Of a DNA stretch of 64,000 bases, positions 20,200 through 33,232 are shown in pieces. The first letter of the stretch is position 1, and each line of letters opens with the position of its first letter. Both the position numbers and the translations under genes were made by a program. This stretch comes from Desulfarculaceae bacterium (GTDB taxonomy: Bacteria; Desulfobacterota; Desulfarculia; Desulfarculales; Desulfarculaceae), in NCBI GenBank assembly GCA_020444545.1, contig JAHLKT010000005.1, positions 186,001 to 250,000 of the forward strand. The letters are read 5' to 3'. Under the pieces are notes generated by a model. It was not told the DNA's origin, did no database searches, and saw only the letters and a program-made list of their open reading frames with translations.

Positions 20200-20275
20200 G
20201 CCGAGGTAGCTCAGTTGGTAGAGCAGGGGACTGAAAATCCCCGTGTCGGCGGTTCAACTCCGTCCCTCGGCACCA
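20200..20275 (+). tRNA. tRNA-Phe (GAA)
   Basis: A complete 76-base cloverleaf: acceptor arms GCCGAGG / CCTCGGC, D arm GCTCAGTTGGTAGAGC, anticodon arm GGGGA-CTGAAAA-TCCCC with anticodon GAA, T arm GGCGG-TTCAACT-CCGTC, and an encoded CCA end. It lies just before an accessory region. tRNA genes are common integration targets, but I found no copy of its 3' end elsewhere in the window. Confidence 0.97.
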
Positions 20276-20284
20276 AAAAATATC

Positions 20285-20318
20285 AGCCACTTAGCCAATA
20301 TCGGCTAGGTGGCTTTTT
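20285..20318 (+). terminator. Terminator after tRNA-Phe
   Basis: AGCCACTTAGCC and GGCTAGGTGGCT pair around a short loop and lead into TTTTTG, a rho-independent terminator 9 bases after the tRNA. Confidence 0.88.
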
Positions 20319-21057: not shown

Positions 21058-22014
21058 CTACAATACATCGTCTTTATTGGTCATGGAGCGGCTTATGTTT
21101 CTTTTGCGTCTAATTGTTTCTAAATGAAAGAAATCTTCGTGATTAAAGCATCGTTCAGTGCGCGAGAAATTACATGGCTCATATGGCGCTGCTCTTAGGG
21201 ATAGATCGAAATCATCATCAAATATATTGCCCAGGGTGGTATTGCGATCTTTCAAGAAATATTGAAAGCACCGGTATATGTCCCCCGCCGGAGATATATA
21301 AATGTAGTCATGGCCTGTGGAACAATTTTCCTGCCAGTGATTGCTTATATTCTCGCTGAGGATTAAATCATTACCGTATAGGCTTCTGGTCCTTGCCTCG
21401 TCATCATAAAACGCCGGTATGAACCCTTCCTCGCTGGTGGGACAGTGCAAATCATAGCCGACATCCGTGCTAACCTTGAGTCCGTTGGCTTGGGCCAACG
21501 CCCTGATATGTTCCACTTGTTCAAAGTTGTCAGGAAACACCAAGCTGTTCACCACCACGTGAACGCCCTGGTCCCGCGCGAACCGCGCTGCCTCCACCAA
21601 CTTTTCGGCCGAGATCTGGGTGTGGTGATAGGTCATCCACAGGGATATTTTGTCGAGATTCGCTCCCTGGGCGAGCATATCCCAACGGCTTTTGACCAGC
21701 GACCCGTTGGTCACCAGTTCCAGATAATGGATGTTGGGCTGCTTGGACAGCCATGCGGCACCCCTCAGGAACTCTTCGCACGTGAACGGCTCACCAACAG
21801 TCTGCAGCCTTATCCCCACGGTCACCGGAAGCTGACTGACCCATTTGATTATCTTTTGGAACTTTTCGCTTCCAGTATCATCCTCCCAGAATTTGTCCTT
21901 GGAGCGTTGTTGGTCATGCTCTGGCTTGGTAGACGCGCAGTATGGACAATTGAAGTTGCACCTGACCATATCGATGATGGTCCATATCTCTAAAATGGAC
22001 GCGTTAATGCTCAT
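21058..22014 (-). CDS. Radical SAM protein with SPASM-like C terminus
   Basis: A 318-residue radical SAM protein. The cluster motif is CNFNCPYC (Cys19, Cys23, Cys26). A C-terminal cysteine set, with one Cys before TGHDYIYISPAGDIYRCF and others near PCNF and RCFNHE, looks like a SPASM or twitch domain for extra clusters. Proteins like this modify peptides or small molecules. Its codon use is more AT-rich than that of most genes here, which suggests transfer. It starts with AGGAAA before the ATG, 46 bases after the double transporter, and is the last gene of the minus-strand operon. No precursor peptide was identified next to it. Confidence 0.85.
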   Translation of the reverse strand: MSINASILEIWTIIDMVRCNFNCPYCASTKPEHDQQRSKDKFWEDDTGSEKFQKIIKWVSQLPVTVGIRLQTVGEPFTCEEFLRGAAWLSKQPNIHYLELVTNGSLVKSRWDMLAQGANLDKISLWMTYHHTQISAEKLVEAARFARDQGVHVVVNSLVFPDNFEQVEHIRALAQANGLKVSTDVGYDLHCPTSEEGFIPAFYDDEARTRSLYGNDLILSENISNHWQENCSTGHDYIYISPAGDIYRCFQYFLKDRNTTLGNIFDDDFDLSLRAAPYEPCNFSRTERCFNHEDFFHLETIRRKRNISRSMTNKDDVL

Positions 22015-22060
22015 GGCTTTCCTGTAAACCCCTCAATCTTTTCTTAAAGGCAAAATGGAC

Positions 22061-24778
22061 TCACTGTGGCGGCGGCTCCGCTCCCCCTCCCGTTGGGGAG
22101 ACCCTCTCCCCGGACCAGGAGGCCTCTATCTCCTCCAGAGTCCGCCCCTTGGTCTCCGGGAGATATTTCCAGCAAAGCAGTGCTCCGGCTGCCCCGATGG
22201 CTCCGAAGATCCAGAAGGTCAAGGCCGAACCTAGGGCGCTGAAGAATATGGGGAACAGCAGGGCGAACAGAAAGGAGAAGATGCTGTTAGCCCCCAGCAC
22301 CAAGCCCAGAGCCGCTCCCCTGACGCGTTGGGGATATATTTCGGACACCACCACGTTGGAGACCGGCCCCAGGCTGGCGGCGAAGGCTCCCACGAAGACG
22401 CCCAGTCCGCCCAAAAGCAGAGCGCGGGCCCAGAAGCCGCTCCACCCGGAATGGCCCAGCACCACCCCGGTCAGGATTAGAGCGGCGATCATTACCAACA
22501 GCCCCCACATGATCAGGGGCTTTCGGCCCAGGCGTTCCACCAGCCACATGGAAACCAGGGTAAAGGCCAGGTTCATCGCGCCCAAGCCGAAGGTGGCCAA
22601 AACCGAGGCGGTGTAGGAGCCGAAGCCGGCGCTTTGGAAAATGGTGGGGGCATACAGGATCAAGGCGTCGAAGCCGGTGAACACGGCCAGGAACATTAAT
22701 GCCATGCCCAACAGCAGGGGCGGCAGAAGCCTGGGGTTGAGCAACTCGTGCCACCCTCCCGCCTCTTCTTCGTCCCCTCCCTGGCTCATGGCCGCCAGAG
22801 CTGCCTGGGGGTCGCCGATCCCCATGCCCCTGAGCATCCTCAGGCTGGCGCTGCGCCGGCCGCGGCTGTAGAGCCAGCGGGGGGACTCGGGCAAAAAGAG
22901 CAGGCCCAGCCCGAAAACCGCGCTGGGGGCGGCCGCCGCCGCGAACATGTAGCGCCAGCCATCGGGCAGGGTCTCAAAGACCAGGGCCGCCAGGTAGGAC
23001 AGCAATATCCCCACCGCCAGGGTCGCCTGGCTTAGGGTCAGCAATCTGCCCCGGATCTCCGGCGGAGCTATCTCCGAGATATAGACGTAGCTGGCCACCG
23101 CCGCCACGCCCATGGTCAGGCCGATCAGGAACCTGGCCCCGATCAAGACGGGCAGGGTGTGCGCCAGGGCGCTGCCAAAGGCGCCGGCCACGAACAGGGC
23201 CGCCGTGGACATGAGCAAATAGCGCCGGCCAAAGAGGTCCGAAGCCTTACCCGCCATGATTTGACCGATGAACAGCCCGGCGCTCAACGAGCTGACCAGC
23301 ACGCCCTGTTCCAGGTTGCTGAGCCCCCACTCCTTGGTGAGCAGCACCACCGCCCCGGCGATTATGCCCACGTTGTACCCGATTATCAGCGCTCCCGTCC
23401 CGGCCACCGTGGTTATGGCGTAGTAGACCAGGTTGCCCTTCTTGAGGGCCTGGGCCCGTTCGACGAACAGGCGCTGGATTCGCTCCAGGGCCAGGCCCCC
23501 GGTCTCCATGAAATTTTTTCTGAGGAACCATAGCCCGGCAAAGGCCACGATGGCGAAGATCAGATAGAACCCGGTGTCCTCCAACTCCCGCAGGAAAAAC
23601 ACCGCGCCCGAGGCGTTGACCATGGCGAAGAGCCAGTGCGCCGCCACGGGGATGCTCATGGCCGCCCCCCGGATGCGCTGGGGGAAGACCTCGGCCACGA
23701 TCACCCAGAGCAGCGGACCCCAACTGAAGGAAAAGAAGGCGATATAGCTGGTGAGGCAGATCACGGCCAGGCGGCTGGAGATAAAAACATCGTGATCCAA
23801 AAAGCCCGATCCGGCCGCCAGAACGCTAAGGCTGAGGCCCATGCCCACCAGCCCGATGCGCAACAGCAGGCGGCGGCTGACCTTGTCCACCAGGGCCATG
23901 GCCACCAAGGTCATGACCAGGTTGACCAGGCTGAGCCCGATGGTGACCGCCAGGTTGGTGTCGGCCACGGCAAAGCCCTCATAGGTCAGGATGGTGGAGG
24001 CGTTGTAAAGAAAGGCGTTGATCCCCACGAACTGCTGGAAGAAGAACAGGCCCACCACGAAGAACAGGGCCAGGCGGATGGGCGGCGCGGCCAGGCGCAT
24101 CCAGGCGTCCTCGGACTGATGGGACAGGGACTCCTTGAGGTCGCGGATGATGGCCTCCGCGTCCGGGTCGCCGATTTTCCGGAAGTTGATGCGGGCTTCT
24201 TCTTCGTCCCCCATGGAGAGCAGCCAGCGGGGCGACTCCACCAGCCACAGCGAGGCCATGCTCAAAAAAACGCCGGGCACGGTGCCGATGATCAGCATGT
24301 GCCGCCAGCTCTCCTGGATGCCCTGCAAAAAATAGGGGACCACGTAGGACAGCATGATGCCGAAGGTAATGCCTAGCTGGTTGACCGTCACCAGCCTTCC
24401 GCGCATACGAGCCGGCGCGATTTCGGCGATGTAGAGCGGCGCGACCAGGGAGACCGCGCCCAGGGCGACCCCCACCAAGGCCCGGCAGGCGATAAACGCC
24501 TCGGGCGAATTGATCATGGCCCCGGAGAAGCTGCCCAGCACGAACAGGGCGGCGGTGGCCATGATGCAGTCGCGCCGGCCGATGTGATCGGCCACTATCC
24601 CCACCAGGGCCGCTCCGACCACGGCCCCGATCAGGACGGCACTTACCGCGAGCTCTTCCTGTAGGGGGGTGAGCTTCCAGGCCACGTTGAGCTGGGGCAG
24701 CACGCTGGAGATGACCCCGGTGTTATACCCGAACAACAGGCCCCCGATGGAGGCGATGCAGGCCATGAGCCAGGCCAT
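22061..24778 (-). CDS. Tandem fusion of two MFS sugar-porter domains (905 aa)
   Basis: Two complete sugar-porter-type MFS transporters are joined in one frame. Domain 1 (about 1-430) starts LLFGYNTGVISSVLP and has DHIGRRD, VESPRWLL and a degraded exit motif METGGLALERI. Domain 2 (about 445-890) starts IIGYNVGIIAGAVV and has DLFGRRY, LPESPRWL, ERLGRKP and LPETKGRTLEEIE. Each should have 12 membrane helices, giving about 24. A normal sugar porter is 450-500 residues. I see no stop or frameshift in the linker (about 425-460), so the fusion is intact. The ATG directly follows the aminotransferase stop (TAG-ATG), showing tight coupling. Substrate unknown; sugars, inositol or related polyols are usual. 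Confidence 0.93.
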   Translation of the reverse strand: MAWLMACIASIGGLLFGYNTGVISSVLPQLNVAWKLTPLQEELAVSAVLIGAVVGAALVGIVADHIGRRDCIMATAALFVLGSFSGAMINSPEAFIACRALVGVALGAVSLVAPLYIAEIAPARMRGRLVTVNQLGITFGIMLSYVVPYFLQGIQESWRHMLIIGTVPGVFLSMASLWLVESPRWLLSMGDEEEARINFRKIGDPDAEAIIRDLKESLSHQSEDAWMRLAAPPIRLALFFVVGLFFFQQFVGINAFLYNASTILTYEGFAVADTNLAVTIGLSLVNLVMTLVAMALVDKVSRRLLLRIGLVGMGLSLSVLAAGSGFLDHDVFISSRLAVICLTSYIAFFSFSWGPLLWVIVAEVFPQRIRGAAMSIPVAAHWLFAMVNASGAVFFLRELEDTGFYLIFAIVAFAGLWFLRKNFMETGGLALERIQRLFVERAQALKKGNLVYYAITTVAGTGALIIGYNVGIIAGAVVLLTKEWGLSNLEQGVLVSSLSAGLFIGQIMAGKASDLFGRRYLLMSTAALFVAGAFGSALAHTLPVLIGARFLIGLTMGVAAVASYVYISEIAPPEIRGRLLTLSQATLAVGILLSYLAALVFETLPDGWRYMFAAAAAPSAVFGLGLLFLPESPRWLYSRGRRSASLRMLRGMGIGDPQAALAAMSQGGDEEEAGGWHELLNPRLLPPLLLGMALMFLAVFTGFDALILYAPTIFQSAGFGSYTASVLATFGLGAMNLAFTLVSMWLVERLGRKPLIMWGLLVMIAALILTGVVLGHSGWSGFWARALLLGGLGVFVGAFAASLGPVSNVVVSEIYPQRVRGAALGLVLGANSIFSFLFALLFPIFFSALGSALTFWIFGAIGAAGALLCWKYLPETKGRTLEEIEASWSGERVSPTGGGAEPPPQ

Positions 24779-26134
24779 CTAGGCCACCGCCCGGCTGAAG
24801 AGGGAGGACCGTCGATAGTCCCGCACCGCCTCGATGACCCGGTCCTGCTCCTCCAGGGACAGTCCGTTGAAGACAGGCAAGGAGAGTTTGCGCGCTTGCA
24901 GGTCCTCGGTCATTGGGAGCTTGGCGTCCTGGTAAGCCGTGCGCCTAAGGGGCGTGTCCTGCTGGTGGGACAACTTGGAGTAGATCACCTCGCTCGGCAA
25001 ACCCCGGGCGGCCAGGAAGGCCCGCAGCCCGTCCCTGGCCTCACGGTTGGCCAAGGTGATGGTGTATTGGTGCCAGGCATGGGCGGGCCGTCCCTGGGGC
25101 CGGGACAGGACCCCGGCCTGCTCCAGCTCTTGCAAGGCGTAGTCATAGCGGCGGGAGAGGACCAGCCGCCGGAAGTTGATCAGGGAGAGATAGGGCAGGC
25201 GGGCCAAGAGGGTGGCGGCCTGGAGGTTGTCGATCAGGCAGTTGAAGCCGAAGGCCAGGCGCTTGACCATTTTCCGTCCCGGCTCGAAACCGTGATAGGC
25301 GATCATGGCCGCCCTGGCTGCCAACTCGTGGTCGTCGGTCACCACGGCCCCGGCCTTGCCGCAGCCGGCGAAGTTCTTGTAGGTGTTGAAGCTCAAGGTG
25401 GCTAGATGCGCCTTTTTGCCGAGCCCGCTGACGCCTATGGCCTGGCAGGCGTCCTCCAGGAGCGCCAAGCCGTGTTGGTCAGCGAGCAGCCGTAGGGCGT
25501 CCAGGTCGGCCCGGCCGCCGTAAAGGTCCACTGGCAGGATGACCCGGGTGCGCGGGGTGATGGCCCGTTCCACGCTCACGGGGTCCAGGTTGTGGGTGCC
25601 TTCCCGGACGTCGGCCAGAACCGGGGCGGCCCCGATAGCCAGGACCGCGTTCTCGGTGGCCGCGAAGCTGTTGGCCGGGATGATCACCTCGTCGCCGGGG
25701 CCAACCTCCAGGGCCAACAAGGCCACCGTGAGGGCGGCGGTGCCGCTGGCGCAGAGGATGACGTGGCTCACCTCCAGAAATTCGCCCAGATGGCCGGCCA
25801 GGGCCTCGATCTCCGGGCCGTAGATGCAGGCGCCCCGCCGGATGCAATCGGCCGCCGCCGCGATGCAGGCGTCCTGCTCCTCGTCGCGCAACATGCGTTC
25901 GAAGGGCTCGAACTCAAAAGGCCCCGGCCCGGGGCTTGGCGGGAAAAGCCCCTCCACCCAGCGGGCTCGGCCGCCATCCGGGATATCCTGGAAATAGGCT
26001 GCCAGCTCGCGGTTGGCCAGAACCTCCGTGAAGGTGGGTGCCTGGGGCCGGGCCTTGGATTCACGGGCCTCACTCATCCACTCATATAGCGCGTGCAAGC
26101 CGTCGCTGCGGCCGTTGCAGGTTACTGGGAGCAT
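24779..26134 (-). CDS. DegT/DnrJ/EryC1 family PLP aminotransferase with N-terminal extension
   Basis: These enzymes transfer an amino group to a keto-sugar, usually nucleotide-bound, or act as related PLP enzymes. The 451-residue product is about 80 residues longer than usual. Residues 1-85 form an extension with a Pro-rich part (FPPSPGPGPFEF), and the catalytic domain begins around 95 (CIRRGACIYGPEIEALA). Landmarks are ASGTAALTVALLAL, LEDACQAIG and SFNTYKNFAGCGKAG, with the likely PLP Lys at about 253. I start at the ATG at 26134, which overlaps the preceding HAD gene by 13 bases; the longer frame to 26548 shadows that gene. The context suggests an aminosugar or aminocyclitol-type product. 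Confidence 0.9.
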   Translation of the reverse strand: MLPVTCNGRSDGLHALYEWMSEARESKARPQAPTFTEVLANRELAAYFQDIPDGGRARWVEGLFPPSPGPGPFEFEPFERMLRDEEQDACIAAAADCIRRGACIYGPEIEALAGHLGEFLEVSHVILCASGTAALTVALLALEVGPGDEVIIPANSFAATENAVLAIGAAPVLADVREGTHNLDPVSVERAITPRTRVILPVDLYGGRADLDALRLLADQHGLALLEDACQAIGVSGLGKKAHLATLSFNTYKNFAGCGKAGAVVTDDHELAARAAMIAYHGFEPGRKMVKRLAFGFNCLIDNLQAATLLARLPYLSLINFRRLVLSRRYDYALQELEQAGVLSRPQGRPAHAWHQYTITLANREARDGLRAFLAARGLPSEVIYSKLSHQQDTPLRRTAYQDAKLPMTEDLQARKLSLPVFNGLSLEEQDRVIEAVRDYRRSSLFSRAVA

Positions 26135-26988
26135 GCTTGGCCCTTCGCGTTCCAGACGAATCGATGCAACAAGGCGTCTGGCATGACGCCCTCCTTTTGG
26201 CATAGGGCCGTTATGGCGGCCTCGTCGGACGCGCCCGCCAGGAGCGCGGCCACCCCGTTGGCCAGTAGCACGGCATAGAGGCCGGCGGCCTTGGCCCCCC
26301 GCAGGTCGGTGGCTGGGCTGTCTCCCACCACCGCGGTGTCGGCCTTGGGCAACCCCGGCAATTGGGCCAAGGCGCGCTGGTAGATTCCGGGGAGAGGCTT
26401 GCCGTAACGATAGACCACCCCGCCGAGCTCTTCGTACATCAGGGCGATGCTGCCGGCGCAGGGAGTCAAGGAGCCGTCCGGGCCCGCGTAACCCAAATCG
26501 GGATTGGCGCAGTAAAGGGGCAGGCCGCGCTCGATGGCCTCGTTCCACGCGCCGGCATAGTCACCGGGGTCGGGCCGCTGATCGTCCAGTCCGGTGACCA
26601 ACAGGAAATCCGCCCGCCCCAGTTCGTGGGTCACCGCAAAACCCAGCCCGTCCAGCAGGCCGGAGCGGTCCTGGGGGCCGATGTGCATTAGGCGGCTCCC
26701 GGCTCGCTCTTGCCGGGCGATGGCCTCCCTGGTGATCTCCCCGGAGGTGGTCAAGCCGTCATAGAGCTCCGGGGAAATACCCAACTCCGCCAGCTCGCGG
26801 GCCAGGACCGCCTCGCTGGAAGGGGTGTTGGAAACCAAGAGCACCCGGCGGCCGCTTTTTTTCAGCTCCCGCAGGCCATCCACCGCGCCGGGGTAGGGCG
26901 TGGAGCCGTCGTGCAGAACCCCCCAGACATCGATGACCATGGCCTTGAATGGGGCGGCAAGTTCCGCGAGGTCGGGGAAGCTCCTCAC
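26122..26988 (-). CDS. HAD-IIA phosphatase (TIGR01459-like)
   Basis: A 288-residue HAD superfamily, class IIA (NagD-like) hydrolase, probably removing phosphate from a sugar or other small phosphoester. Motif I is VIDVWGVLHDG: nucleophile Asp20 is present, but the usual second Asp is Trp22, as I recall for the TIGR01459 subgroup. Motif II is LLVSNTPSS, and the C-terminal GKPLPGIY and VVGDSPATDLRGAKAAG hold the Lys and the metal Asp. The start overlaps the glycosyltransferase stop by 4 bases (ATGA). Activity is a family inference and may be altered by the Trp. Confidence 0.9.
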   Translation of the reverse strand: MRSFPDLAELAAPFKAMVIDVWGVLHDGSTPYPGAVDGLRELKKSGRRVLLVSNTPSSEAVLARELAELGISPELYDGLTTSGEITREAIARQERAGSRLMHIGPQDRSGLLDGLGFAVTHELGRADFLLVTGLDDQRPDPGDYAGAWNEAIERGLPLYCANPDLGYAGPDGSLTPCAGSIALMYEELGGVVYRYGKPLPGIYQRALAQLPGLPKADTAVVGDSPATDLRGAKAAGLYAVLLANGVAALLAGASDEAAITALCQKEGVMPDALLHRFVWNAKGQACSQ

Positions 26989-27830
26989 AGGCGGATCTCG
27001 CGGCTCTGCATCTGGTATTGCTGGGACTTGAATTGTTCAAAACCCGGTATCCGTTTGATGATCCTGCGCCAGTTGGGGTTGTCGCGCTTATTGAAGCGGT
27101 CCAGGGCGTGGGAGCTTTCGCTGTCTTGATGAAGGCACTCGATACCCGGCAGGTAGCGGGGTGTGGCGCCCCCCAGAGTGATCATGCGGTAGGCGAAATC
27201 GATGTCTTCATAGCCCCAGACACCGTCGAACGCCTCGTCGAAGCCCCCAATCCGCATGGCGGTGGATTTCCGGTAGATCATGTTGCAGGTATGAAAATAG
27301 GCCCAGGGGTGTTCGGAATCGACGAGCCGCTGGAGGTAAGGCAGCCGCCGGTCCACGACCTTGCGGTAATTAGCCGGGCTGGCCACTTGGGGAAGCGCAT
27401 CAAAGTCCACCCGCCCGGCAAGGATGTCTTCATCGCTGTATCCGCCCAAATCCACGAATTTCCGCAGCCCGGTGACCATGGGGTTTTGCCGTCCGGTCCA
27501 TTCGAGGTAAGCCGCGATGCGGGACAGGTAGCCGGGTATGGGAACGCAGTCGGAGTCGAGGTTTATGATCCATTCCCCGTGGGCCAGCTGTAAGCCCAGG
27601 TTGCGCGCCCGGCTGGTGGCCCTGGGGTGGGGCAGGCGAGGCTGGCGAATCAGGTACAGTTCCAGGCGGTTGACATATTTGCGGTAGACCGCATCTATGT
27701 CTTCTTCAAAAGAATTGTTATCCGCCAAAAAAACCTCGAACTCCGGCCCCTTCAGGTTCAAGCAGAGGCCTGCCAGGGTTTTCTTTAGCAGGTCAATGTC
27801 GTTGTGGCATGGCAAGACAAAAGAAAACAT
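26985..27830 (-). CDS. Family 2 glycosyltransferase
   Basis: A 281-residue GT-A fold glycosyltransferase. It starts MFSFVLPCHNDIDLL, with the sugar-nucleotide Asp in FLADNNS near 34-40, the metal-binding DSD in INLDSDCVP near 90-98, and an acceptor-side GVWGYEDIDFAYRM near 205-220. The C-terminal part recalls GT27-like galactosyltransferases. There is no membrane segment, so it is cytosolic. It is coupled to the HAD gene by a 4-base overlap and sits 12 bases after the GMC oxidoreductase. Donor and acceptor are unknown. Confidence 0.9.
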   Translation of the reverse strand: MFSFVLPCHNDIDLLKKTLAGLCLNLKGPEFEVFLADNNSFEEDIDAVYRKYVNRLELYLIRQPRLPHPRATSRARNLGLQLAHGEWIINLDSDCVPIPGYLSRIAAYLEWTGRQNPMVTGLRKFVDLGGYSDEDILAGRVDFDALPQVASPANYRKVVDRRLPYLQRLVDSEHPWAYFHTCNMIYRKSTAMRIGGFDEAFDGVWGYEDIDFAYRMITLGGATPRYLPGIECLHQDSESSHALDRFNKRDNPNWRRIIKRIPGFEQFKSQQYQMQSREIRL

Positions 27831-27842
27831 GGGGAACCTCCA

Positions 27843-29480
27843 TCAAGCGGACCCGGGGCGGTGATAAAGGGAGGGTGCATTTTCGGCCAAGTGCCGGCCC
27901 AGACGATGAGCCAAGGCCATGATCGTCAGGGTTAGATGCTTTTCCGGCAGTTTGGGGATCACGCTCCCATCGCAAACATAAAGGTTGGGGTGGTCGAAAC
28001 AGCGCAGGTCGGCGTCCACCACCCCCTGGCTGGGCCCGGCGGCCATGCGCGCCGTGCCCGCGTAGTGGATGCCCAGCCCGGCGGCGGCTCCTTCCTTGAG
28101 GATCACCGTGGCGGACGCCTTCTTGAGAAGTTTTTCGCCCAGGTCCAGCATGGCCTGCTTCATGGCCTTTTCCCGGGCCGACTCGCGGTAAACCACCTCC
28201 ACCTGCGGCACGCCGAAAGCATCGGTTCGTTGGGAGGGAATCACGCGATTGCCGGACTCGTCGTCCGCCGGCGCGAAAAAGGCCAGAGTGGCGTAGCTTC
28301 TGAAGAGCTGCTTGGCCAGCCAGGGTTTTAAAGCCGGGGGGCATTTCTTGAGCCAGGGAAGGTACAAGGGAATGGACGGCAACTGGTGCACGAATTGCCC
28401 CAGGCAGGGAAAGCTCTCCCCGTCCGGCGTCCTGGCTTTGGCCAGCACCAGTAGATGATCGCCATAACCCTGGGGGTATTTTTTTCGTGAGCCCCACAGG
28501 CGCCACAGCGAGGTGCTCAGCAGAACCTTGGGGTTGTCCTGTAGGCCTTGGCCCAGCAGCCCCGACGAGTTGGCCGGCCCCTGGGGGGAATGGCCGTTGG
28601 CGGTGTTGAATAGAATGCGCGGCGTTTCCAGCGCGCCGGCCGACAGGACATAGGCCTTAGCCCTGACCACGTCCCCTTCGCCGGTGCGCGGGTCTATCAC
28701 CCGCAGGCCGCGCACCTCACCGCCGAGGGCGTCGTATTCCAGCCCCACCGCCTTGCTATTGAGACGTAGGGTGAAACGGCCCGAGTCCTTAATAGCGGGC
28801 AGCAGATGAGACGAGAACTTGTACACCGAATGGTAGGGGCAGCCTGAAATGCAGCCGCCGGTGTCTTGGCATCGGTTCGGTTGCTCCGGCCGGGTTTCCA
28901 CCGCCTTGCGGTTGGGGATGACCCGAACGCCGTACCCCCGCACTTTGCCCGCCGCCGTGCGAAAAAGCCGGTCGGGCGGCCGCAGCTCCTTGGGCGCCAT
29001 GAATTCGCCGTCCGGGATGTCCGGCAGGTCTTCGCGGGTGCCGCACACTCCCACGATCCGCTCCACCGCGCGGTAGTGCTCCTCCAGATCAGAGTAGCTC
29101 AGAGGCCACCCGGTGAAGTCTCCGGGCGCCAACCTTACGGACACGCCGTTCCAAAGGTTGGTCAGGCCATCCAAGGCGAAAATCTGAAATTGCCGGAAGG
29201 CGTCCGGTTCGGCCGGATGGGACGAAAGCATCTCCGGTTTGGAATAGAGCTGATGCTCAAAGGCAAACCCATGCGGGTCCAACGGAAGGGGGACATCGGA
29301 TTTCAGGCCGAAGTCGATCGAGTTGCCCGGCGGGTTTATCCGGGTGAAGTAGTCCTCAGGCAGGGCGTCGCCCTGTTCCACCGAAATCACCCGCATCCCC
29401 GCTTGGACCAGGGTATGGGCCAGAATGCCACCGCCGGCTCCGGTGCCAACAACACAGATGTCATATGGTTCAGCGTTCAC
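27843..29480 (-). CDS. GMC family FAD-dependent oxidoreductase
   Basis: GMC enzymes oxidise alcohols, sugars or polyols with FAD. The 545-residue product has the FAD motif VVGTGAGGGILA (residues 10-21) and VEQGDALPED next to it. A CISGCPYHS cysteine segment near 205-213 resembles that of gluconate or sorbose dehydrogenase-type GMC enzymes. At the C terminus, HYAGTARM carries the catalytic His and KHLTLTIMALAHRLG closes the FAD site. The first 11 bases overlap the upstream small-subunit gene, typical of two-subunit periplasmic or membrane sugar dehydrogenases. No twin-arginine signal is visible. It could make the keto-sugar used by the aminotransferase. Confidence 0.93.
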   Translation of the reverse strand: MNAEPYDICVVGTGAGGGILAHTLVQAGMRVISVEQGDALPEDYFTRINPPGNSIDFGLKSDVPLPLDPHGFAFEHQLYSKPEMLSSHPAEPDAFRQFQIFALDGLTNLWNGVSVRLAPGDFTGWPLSYSDLEEHYRAVERIVGVCGTREDLPDIPDGEFMAPKELRPPDRLFRTAAGKVRGYGVRVIPNRKAVETRPEQPNRCQDTGGCISGCPYHSVYKFSSHLLPAIKDSGRFTLRLNSKAVGLEYDALGGEVRGLRVIDPRTGEGDVVRAKAYVLSAGALETPRILFNTANGHSPQGPANSSGLLGQGLQDNPKVLLSTSLWRLWGSRKKYPQGYGDHLLVLAKARTPDGESFPCLGQFVHQLPSIPLYLPWLKKCPPALKPWLAKQLFRSYATLAFFAPADDESGNRVIPSQRTDAFGVPQVEVVYRESAREKAMKQAMLDLGEKLLKKASATVILKEGAAAGLGIHYAGTARMAAGPSQGVVDADLRCFDHPNLYVCDGSVIPKLPEKHLTLTIMALAHRLGRHLAENAPSLYHRPGSA

Positions 29481-29811
29481 CGGAAATACCCTTATATGCT
29501 TCCGGAGTGGAGAAATAGATGAATTCCAGGAAATCCTGGAGCAGGCTGAATTGCTCTTTCATCCGGGGGTCGGCGCGAAACGAGCGGGGACTGACAGGTC
29601 CCTTTCGGTACACTTTGGCCATGGTCTGGGAAATTTGGTGGTGACCCGCCGCGATCCGGTCGATGTCCTGCTCATATCTGCTCAGCACTCGGCGGTAAGG
29701 GCTCGCCGCGATGAGCATCCGGAGGAGTTCGCGTCTATTCTGTGGAGACAAAGCAAGGTCCAATGCATACCCCTTGTGCCCGGCTGCTGCTCTTCGCTCG
29801 GCTGAAGACAT
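29470..29811 (-). CDS. Small partner of the GMC oxidoreductase (gluconate 2-dehydrogenase subunit 3-like)
   Basis: A 113-residue, largely helical protein with no signal peptide. Its C terminus, FLEFIYFSTPEAYKGISG, resembles the end of the gluconate 2-dehydrogenase subunit 3 family, a usual neighbour of GMC enzymes. It overlaps the GMC gene by 11 bases and opens the minus-strand operon. I assign it from position and weak similarity by eye; it could be an unrelated helical protein. The ATG at 29811 lies about 50 bases after a TAGGAGGAGG sequence, so the actual start or leader is uncertain. Confidence 0.65.
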   Translation of the reverse strand: MSSAERRAAAGHKGYALDLALSPQNRRELLRMLIAASPYRRVLSRYEQDIDRIAAGHHQISQTMAKVYRKGPVSPRSFRADPRMKEQFSLLQDFLEFIYFSTPEAYKGISGER

Positions 29812-30729: not shown

Positions 30730-31653
30730 ATGAGCACTCCTCTGTTCTCGATCATCACCCCGACCCTGAATCGGGCTCACACCATTAAAGAGGCGGTGAG
30801 GAGTGTCATGGATCAAAATTTCCAATCATTTGAGCACATCGTGGTCGACGGCTGCTCCACGGACAATACTTTGGAGGTTTTGGCGGAGTTTCCCCACCTA
30901 AAAGTCATCAGCGGACCGGACCAGGGCCTGTGGGACGCCCTCAACAAGGGGATCGCCCTAAGCCGAGGTGAAATCGTCGGGCACTTAAACAGCGACGACC
31001 GCTACTTGCCTGGCGCCTTCAAAAAGGTGGCCCGCGTTTTGAGCGATGATCCCGGGGCCGGGGCGGCCTGCGGCGGGGCGGAGATATTCCAAACCGGACC
31101 CAACGGCGACAGGGTGCTGTACCGCTACAACCGCCCTGGCCTTAAAGAAATGCGGCTTAGCGACATCACACGCTATGTGCCCATTACCAACGCCCGTTTT
31201 TTCCGCAAGGAGGTATACAAAAAAGTCGGTTTTTATAACCAGGGCTATCCCCTGGCGGCTGACCGCGAGTTTTTCCTCCGGGTATGGCTGGCCGGCATAA
31301 GAACCGCCCAGGTCCGGGGCGTGGTGTATCAGTACCGCTGGCACAGGGGATCGCTCACCATAAAGGGCTCAACCGGCCTGACCAACCTGGCCCGGGGCGA
31401 TTACCTGAAGTTATGCGCTTCCTTTTTGGCAAAGCCGGATTTGCCGGAAGAGGTGCGAAAGGAGCTTCTCAACTGGCGTGCCTGGGAATTGATCTGCCAA
31501 TCACTTAGCCAGCTGAAGGAGAAGGGCGGCAGGCAGGCACTGGCTTCGTTTTGGCGGGCCATAAAGACCGACCCGGCCGCGCCGCTGCGTTTTGCCGCTG
31601 TGGGCCTGGCGCGGCTGCCCGGCAGGGGAAAGCGGGGCCACGATGCCGCCTGA
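30730..31653 (+). CDS. Family 2 glycosyltransferase (WcaA-like)
   Basis: A 307-residue cytosolic GT2. It starts FSIITPTLNRAHTIKEA, with VVDGCSTDNT near 37-46 and the metal-binding LNSDDRYLPG near 88-97. A C-terminal helix bundle (SLSQLKEKGGRQALASFWR) may contact the membrane. The ATG at 30730 follows a gene-poor stretch with no clear ribosome site. The stop overlaps the next glycosyltransferase by 11 bases, so the two act together, probably adding sugars to a surface glycan. Confidence 0.9.
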   Translation: MSTPLFSIITPTLNRAHTIKEAVRSVMDQNFQSFEHIVVDGCSTDNTLEVLAEFPHLKVISGPDQGLWDALNKGIALSRGEIVGHLNSDDRYLPGAFKKVARVLSDDPGAGAACGGAEIFQTGPNGDRVLYRYNRPGLKEMRLSDITRYVPITNARFFRKEVYKKVGFYNQGYPLAADREFFLRVWLAGIRTAQVRGVVYQYRWHRGSLTIKGSTGLTNLARGDYLKLCASFLAKPDLPEEVRKELLNWRAWELICQSLSQLKEKGGRQALASFWRAIKTDPAAPLRFAAVGLARLPGRGKRGHDAA

Positions 31654-32854: not shown

Positions 32855-33232
32855 TCATCTAATTTGGCACAGAAGATGCTGTTCTTCTAAGTCGTAGAGT
32901 TTGGTCCCCTCCGGCATCGGGCTGTTTACGTTATACCACTTCCGCCTGGCCATGGTCTTGCTCTTGAGCTTGGCCCGGTATTCCAGGATTGAGTTCTTCC
33001 CGCCATAGTAAACATAGTCCGGCGTCACGTTGCCCAGGGCCTCGTGACACCGCCTGGTGTTGTAGTAATCGACGGATTTTCCTGTTTCCTCTCTCAAGGC
33101 ATTTGGAGGCTCCCATACCATCAGGTTGATCTGCTTCTTGAAAGAGCGGTGGTAGCGCTCGATCTCGCCGTTGGTCTGAGGATGGTAGGGGGAGGCCAGG
33201 ATATGGCCCAGGCCCTGAACCGCCTTGAGTGC
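32855..33232 (-). pseudogene. Truncated DDE transposase (rve type, IS3/IS481-like), C-terminal fragment
   Basis: The frame encodes the end of an integrase-core transposase: SPYHPQTNGEIERYHRSFK, which includes the last catalytic Glu of the DDE triad, then VDYYNTRRCHEALGNVTPDY, typical of IS481/IS3 transposases. It is cut at the N-terminal side by a TAG at 33233-33235. The first two Asp residues and the helix-turn-helix are missing, so it cannot be active. No terminal inverted repeats are evident. It marks past mobile-element activity at the right edge of the accessory region. Confidence 0.85.

Follow-up and report, generated by a model that had tools for sequence, protein, structure and literature searches.

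The described systems closest to the locus reported here are the kanosamine operons of Bacillus, namely ntdABC of Bacillus subtilis, to which GlcP is linked, and kabABC of Bacillus cereus UW85. In the routes encoded by ntdCAB and kabCAB, a ketone is formed, turned into an amine and dephosphorylated (PMC8788734). The window analyzed in this study is a 64,000-nucleotide stretch of a Desulfarculaceae genome (GenBank assembly GCA_020444545.1, contig JAHLKT010000005.1, positions 186,001 to 250,000), in which a minus-strand block of seven open reading frames (ORFs) at 21058-29811 has the appearance of an operon. We tentatively read this block, with confidence somewhat below even, as a transferable operon that makes and exports an amino sugar by kanosamine-type chemistry, giving a compound like 3-amino-3-deoxyglucose that is further modified by tailoring enzymes.

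A conserved operon in two species

All seven minus-strand genes claimed in a preliminary description of this DNA are present as ORFs (Table 1). Pfam and NCBIfam searches confirmed the assigned families for six of them, comprising a GMC oxidoreductase, a GT2 glycosyltransferase, a HAD-IIA hydrolase, a DegT aminotransferase, two fused sugar porters and a radical S-adenosylmethionine (SAM) enzyme, whereas the 113-residue protein that had been called a small subunit has no match. The genes were also said to overlap or to adjoin with zero spacing, which holds for four of the six junctions: the genes for the 113-residue protein and the GMC enzyme overlap by 11 bases, GT2 and HAD by 4, and HAD and DegT by 13 (with the ATG at 26134 taken as the start), while DegT and the porter are separated by 0 bases. 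The other two junctions are gaps, of 12 bases between GMC and GT2 and of 46 bases between the porter and the radical SAM enzyme. A scan for promoters and terminators at the operon revealed no excess over shuffled sequences.

The same seven genes occur in the same order in a second species of the genus (G008, a Desulfarculaceae metagenome-assembled genome, JAIPEN010000006), with near-identical junctions (50, 0, -1, -4, +12 and -11). The two blocks share 82% nucleotide identity between unrelated flanks, and the DNA match spans 21061-29745, ending at the edges of the gene set. Protein identities are 57% for the 113-residue protein, 84% for GMC, 86% for GT2, 71% for HAD, 77% for DegT, 90% for the porter and 84% for the radical SAM enzyme. 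The ratio of nonsynonymous to synonymous substitution rates between the two species ranges from 0.10 to 0.28 across the seven genes (0.20 for the 113-residue protein), and all seven are under purifying selection. The block is thus a real, selected and mobile-looking operon. Retention of the gene order between different flanks bears out the proposal that the genes form one functional unit. The preliminary description would have been refuted had the neighbors been conserved in no other genome, which is not the case, with conservation of the neighborhood so far limited to this one other species.

Close homologs of the GMC, DegT, radical SAM and GT2 proteins were found neither in the six other genomes of the genus or the rest of the order, nor in the 297 to 395 Desulfobacterota genomes sampled. 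Other phyla were covered only by a wider contig scan with two short peptide patterns, a weak negative that returned G008 and one GMC relative of 26% identity. Viral contigs and phages yielded no matches, and plasmids only distant single homologs, with no two of the seven genes together in the inspected regions (GMC and porter matches excluded). This patchy presence suggests transfer or repeated loss, and the cassette has probably moved between genomes.

Aminotransferase, flavoenzyme and sugar porter

The aminotransferase shares 44% identity with NtdA, and its nearest solved relatives are NtdA itself (4k2b, E 2e-92) and 7kz3 (E 4e-87), which we take to be KabA, with all others at 3e-59 or weaker. 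In a maximum-likelihood tree (IQ-TREE), the proteins of the window and G008 fall into one clade with NtdA, 7kz3 and an enzyme from an Escherichia coli plasmid (support 100/100), while DesV, 4qgr, ArnB, WecE and the host's own DegT proteins lie outside. All four subclass motifs are present (the lysine for pyridoxal phosphate (PLP) in SFNxYKN, ANSFxATEN, YHGF and LSH), and the window protein keeps 19 of 36 clade-diagnostic positions, compared with 2-9 of 37-44 in other sugar aminotransferases. Judged by these sequence features, the enzyme is a member of the NtdA/KabA subclass, which acts on 3-oxo-glucose-6-phosphate in kanosamine synthesis. The E. coli enzyme comes from colicin plasmids (NZ_CP054364.1, 46197-51065) carrying an operon of DegT, HAD-IIB, Gfo/Idh, SemiSWEET and FAD-oxidoreductase genes, which resembles a full NtdABC-like gene set for kanosamine, accompanied by a sugar transporter.

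No NtdC-type dehydrogenase is encoded in the operon, and a search of the host genome with the NtdC-type enzyme from the E. coli plasmid gave no match at E 1e-5. The ketone must therefore come from another enzyme, and the obvious replacement is the GMC enzyme. Its nearest PDB relative is the catalytic subunit of the Burkholderia FAD-dependent glucose dehydrogenase (BcGDH; 6a2u, E 7e-39). Cys204, Cys210 and Cys214 align with the 3Fe-4S ligands Cys212, Cys218 and Cys222 of BcGDH, and His472 and His515 with its catalytic His476 and Asn519 (BcGDH residues from PMC6719666); the FAD motif, the 3Fe-4S cysteines and the catalytic histidine pair are all intact. The site of oxidation would be C3, as judged from the class of the aminotransferase. 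Neither the GMC enzyme nor the 113-residue protein has an export signal or hydrophobic N-terminal segment, suggesting that the reaction is probably cytosolic, and the operon contains no cytochrome gene.

The 113-residue protein, a putative accessory subunit, lacks cysteine, and its gene overlaps that of the GMC enzyme by 11 bases in both species. It has no family match in Pfam, NCBIfam or PHROG, and a profile search of the PDB returned chance matches only. Its AlphaFold model consists of helices only (mean pLDDT, the predicted local distance difference test score, 74) and gave no Foldseek match at E 0.001 and no fold match in the PDB. VIA-align rows were weak (best Z 4.6, a poly(A)-binding-protein domain), and the BcGDH small subunit is not listed among them, which proves nothing.

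The fused porter belongs to the sugar porter family (TC 2.A.1.1), matching TIGR00879 in two stretches with 646 bits against a cut-off of 237.8. Each half is a complete sugar porter with GlcP (4lds) as its best match, and the halves are 32% identical to each other. In both species, the N-terminal half keeps QQFVGIN (QQxxxxN) and the tryptophan of SWGPLLW, matching Gln288, Gln289, Asn294 and Trp392, which bind glucose in XylE (PMC12942029). At the same sites, the C-terminal half reads AVFTGFD (AVxxxxD) and SLGPVSN, with asparagine for tryptophan. In addition, the aspartate in helix 1 of H+ symporters (Asp27 in XylE; Asn29 in the uniporter GLUT1; PMC5491310) is asparagine in both halves. On these residues, it is a reasonable inference that the N-terminal half is a glucose facilitator and the C-terminal half a second facilitator for another compound; the acidic residue gained in the latter (Asn to Asp) would be compatible with an amine. 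In the plasmid collection, no fused double porter was found.

HAD protein, glycosyltransferase and radical SAM enzyme

The HAD protein matches TIGR01459 with 146 bits against a cut-off of 104, and its motif I reads DVW, in which tryptophan replaces the second aspartate of phosphatases. Its nearest PDB relative, 6nq4, shares the sequence DVWGV. More generally, TIGR01459-type HAD proteins with this tryptophan (window 26122-26988 and 6nq4) may catalyze a reaction that differs from ordinary phosphate hydrolysis. For the GT2 protein, the nearest solved relative is chondroitin synthase (2z86/2z87), and a homolog in Streptomyces BHT-5-2 has different surroundings.

In five homologs of the radical SAM enzyme, Cys19, Cys23 and Cys26 (CX3CX2C) and the C-terminal Cys231, Cys249, Cys281 and Cys289 are invariant. 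Twitch enzymes are defined by CX3CX2C together with four auxiliary-cluster cysteines, and BtrN oxidizes an aminocyclitol (PMC9012708). This pattern of three plus four cysteines, as in BtrN, fits a twitch enzyme whose single auxiliary cluster is fully ligated, and not the full SPASM set that had been ascribed to this protein. An AlphaFold model built from two sequences (mean pLDDT 43) was too poor for use. A role in defense was considered and rejected, the Viperin and PHROG matches being weak and at superfamily level. Outside the genus, the nearest homologs (34-35% identity over the full length) reside in an actinobacterial plasmid cassette.

This cassette of Nocardia and Streptomyces plasmids (NZ_CP109567, NZ_CP108214 and NZ_CP130721) is itself conserved, with seven genes at L011 10775-17240, L012 10794-17270 and L013 10850-17237. 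It encodes two radical SAM enzymes (one of the SPASM type), a creatininase-family protein, an arylsulfotransferase-like protein, a GT2, a methyltransferase and a small P-loop (AAA) ATPase, and no known system was recognized in it.

Proposed pathway and its weight

In the proposed pathway, glucose would enter through the N-terminal half of the fused porter and be phosphorylated to glucose-6-phosphate by a host glucokinase; PF02685 glucokinase is present in both host genomes, and a ROK glucokinase is absent from the host. The cytosolic GMC flavoenzyme, with its 3Fe-4S cluster and perhaps the 113-residue protein as subunit, would then oxidize the C3 hydroxyl, with the quinone pool or a different carrier as electron acceptor, and the NtdA-type aminotransferase would turn the 3-keto group into an amine. 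After presumed removal of the phosphate by the HAD enzyme, the GT2 could add a sugar to the amino sugar or use the amino sugar itself, the radical SAM enzyme could oxidize or otherwise modify it, and the product would leave through the C-terminal porter half with its changed binding site.

Several observations weigh against this pathway. The operon contains no resistance gene, no regulator and no enzyme for activation such as a kinase or nucleotidyltransferase. The aminotransferases of the window and G008 form the earliest branch of their clade (branch length 0.67), and possible substrate residues near position 104 read CIY in place of FTS; the substrate may therefore differ. Among the GMC relatives compared, those of known function oxidize C1, C5 or other positions, and none is a 3-dehydrogenase. 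No relation of the 113-residue protein to known GMC subunits was detected by Pfam, profile or fold, and its label as a small subunit could not be confirmed. Finally, the HAD protein is of the HAD-IIA type with DVW, unlike the HAD-IIB type of NtdB; NtdB belongs to the HAD-IIB class, as does the HAD enzyme of the E. coli plasmid operon. The missing second aspartate in motif I weakens the dephosphorylation step. Uptake of a sugar, its oxidation to a ketone and then transamination are the best reading, and the outline of the preliminary description, with uptake, oxidation, transamination and glycosyl transfer, stands.

A more ambitious version, which we consider doubtful, is a self-contained and transferable factory for a new natural product of anaerobes. 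A cytosolic 3Fe-4S flavoenzyme would stand in for the NAD-dependent 3-dehydrogenase, one of two fused porters without proton coupling would admit glucose while the other releases a cationic amino sugar, and the radical SAM enzyme would act on the amino sugar. If the kanosamine-type reading is true, such chemistry, previously known from Bacillus and from actinomycetes, extends to the Desulfarculaceae with a different oxidizing enzyme. There would then be two routes to 3-amino sugars, which is of use in the engineering of aminoglycosides, and the operon would hint at a product yet to be explored. The fused porter has a normal sugar site in one half and an altered one in the other and offers a testable case of coupled substrate import and product export.

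Alternative explanations

An unlikely alternative is a small pathway resembling those for aminoglycosides or aminocyclitols, in which the GMC and DegT enzymes aminate another position such as C6 and a BtrN-like radical SAM enzyme makes another ketone, at which the glycosylated scaffold is aminated a second time. Pairs of a GMC enzyme and an aminotransferase act at C6 when aminoglycosides are made. The GMC, DegT, glycosyltransferase, phosphatase and four-auxiliary-cysteine radical SAM proteins of the operon match the enzyme types of the butirosin pathway. In addition, the PDB relatives of the GMC enzyme include an oxidase from an aminoglycoside pathway (7dve, 6'''-hydroxyparomomycin C oxidase). 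However, this match is much weaker than that to the FAD-glucose dehydrogenase, the aminotransferase falls into the NtdA clade with no butirosin-type aminocyclitol aminotransferase among its close solved relatives, and the operon lacks a cyclitol synthase. The chance is lower still that a rare amino sugar made by the operon ends up in a surface glycan (an exopolysaccharide or an O-antigen) instead of a secreted small molecule, with the GT2 adding it to the polymer. Genes for polysaccharide-type GT2 proteins, as judged by sequence, start at 30730 and 31592 and adjoin the operon, whose own GT2 resembles polymer synthases; however, the G008 operon sits among unrelated genes, and a nucleotidyltransferase, a flippase and a membrane anchor are missing from the operon, which has a porter of its own from the major facilitator superfamily.

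It is improbable that the locus makes a mycofactocin-related peptide cofactor or ribosomally synthesized and post-translationally modified peptide, with the 113-residue protein as precursor, the radical SAM enzyme modifying it, the GT2 glycosylating it and the product serving as electron acceptor of the GMC enzyme. MftF and MftG do appear among the NCBIfam matches of the GT2 and GMC proteins, and the radical SAM homologs on actinobacterial plasmids adjoin a creatininase-family gene and a glycosyltransferase gene. Membership of the mycofactocin system was nevertheless rejected, the scores lying far below the cut-offs (72 versus 280 for MftF; 53 versus 387 for MftG) and NCBIfam giving no match to MftB, MftC or MftD. 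Moreover, the 113-residue protein has neither cysteine nor a leader/core layout, and neither an NtdA-type aminotransferase nor a double sugar porter fits into such a system. Least probable of all is a catabolic operon in which an unusual sugar or cyclitol is imported and converted by GMC, DegT and HAD for central metabolism. Catabolic pathways often include GMC dehydrogenases and sugar porters, and both families are confirmed here; however, the NtdA-clade aminotransferase, GT2 and radical SAM enzyme are biosynthetic types, and no kinase, aldolase or dehydratase follows.

Genomic setting

The operon lies beyond a tRNA-Phe gene that marks the border between conserved chromosome and a variable region (Table 1). 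Left of this gene the chromosome is collinear with two relatives, synteny with both ends at 20285, and the right side is different in each; in G008 this tRNA and the operon are about 60 kb apart, with the operon again on the right. The 3' end of the tRNA-Phe gene is repeated on the right side in both relatives (C7:232339 in G008; C1 3317166 and 3324488 in G004), as expected for a tRNA gene that serves island integration. In the window's own contig, the 68 kb after tRNA-Phe yielded no such repeat. The tRNA-Phe is thus a hot spot, with the left side collinear in three species, the right side variable and the 3' end repeated in two. Separately, a fragment at 32855-33121 resembles by eye the end of an IS3-type transposase and lies between the two GT2 genes after the operon and the genes further right.

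Table 1. Genes of the operon and the neighboring tRNA gene, with positions in the window
Feature	Position	Strand	Basis
113-residue helical protein, first gene	29470..29811	-	ORF call; no family match
GMC oxidoreductase, FAD-glucose dehydrogenase type, predicted sugar 3-dehydrogenase	27843..29480	-	PF05199/PF00732
GT2 glycosyltransferase, soluble, DxD and WGxED motifs	26985..27830	-	PF00535
HAD-IIA hydrolase, predicted sugar-phosphate phosphatase, motif I D-V-W	26122..26988	-	TIGR01459
PLP-dependent sugar aminotransferase (DegT), NtdA/KabA (3-oxo-glucose-6-phosphate) subclass	24779..26134	-	PF01041, tree
Fused double sugar porter, 2 x ~445 residues (905 residues)	22061..24778	-	TIGR00879, two stretches
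Radical SAM enzyme, one auxiliary Fe-S cluster site (twitch-like), last gene	21058..22014	-	PF04055
tRNA-Phe, border of conserved chromosome and operon-carrying variable region	20200..20275	+	tRNA call, synteny

Comparison with known systems

The actinobacterial plasmid cassette shares with the operon the nearest radical SAM enzyme outside the genus and a GT2; all other genes differ, and the cassette has no DegT, GMC, HAD or porter gene. Like the BcGDH (6a2u) and FDH (7w2j) complexes, the operon combines an FAD catalytic subunit bearing three 3Fe-4S cysteines with a small gene directly upstream. However, it encodes no Tat (twin-arginine translocation) signal and no cytochrome c, its flavoenzyme has a His/His in place of a His/Asn pair, and the cysteine-free 113-residue protein shows no detectable similarity to the known small (hitchhiker) subunit. 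Butirosin-type enzymes (BtrN and its partners) resemble those of the operon in the three-plus-four cysteine pattern of the radical SAM enzyme and in the GMC, DegT, glycosyltransferase and phosphatase types, whereas the operon has no cyclitol synthase, its aminotransferase is of another clade, and its radical SAM enzyme is unrelated to BtrN beyond the domain.

With ntdABC and kabABC, the operon has in common an NtdA-clade aminotransferase, a HAD-superfamily enzyme and a GlcP-like porter. Given the clade of the aminotransferase and the GlcP-like porter halves, the scheme parallels the kanosamine operons ntdABC-glcP and kabABCD, and the preliminary description's view that no described system resembles this set does not stand. 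However, a GMC flavoenzyme takes the place of the Gfo/Idh-type NtdC, the porter is fused and double, a GT2, a radical SAM enzyme and the 113-residue protein are added, and a regulator gene is lacking. Since two defining components, the types of dehydrogenase and phosphatase, differ, the operon is not a member of the ntdABC/kabABC group but a parallel to it.

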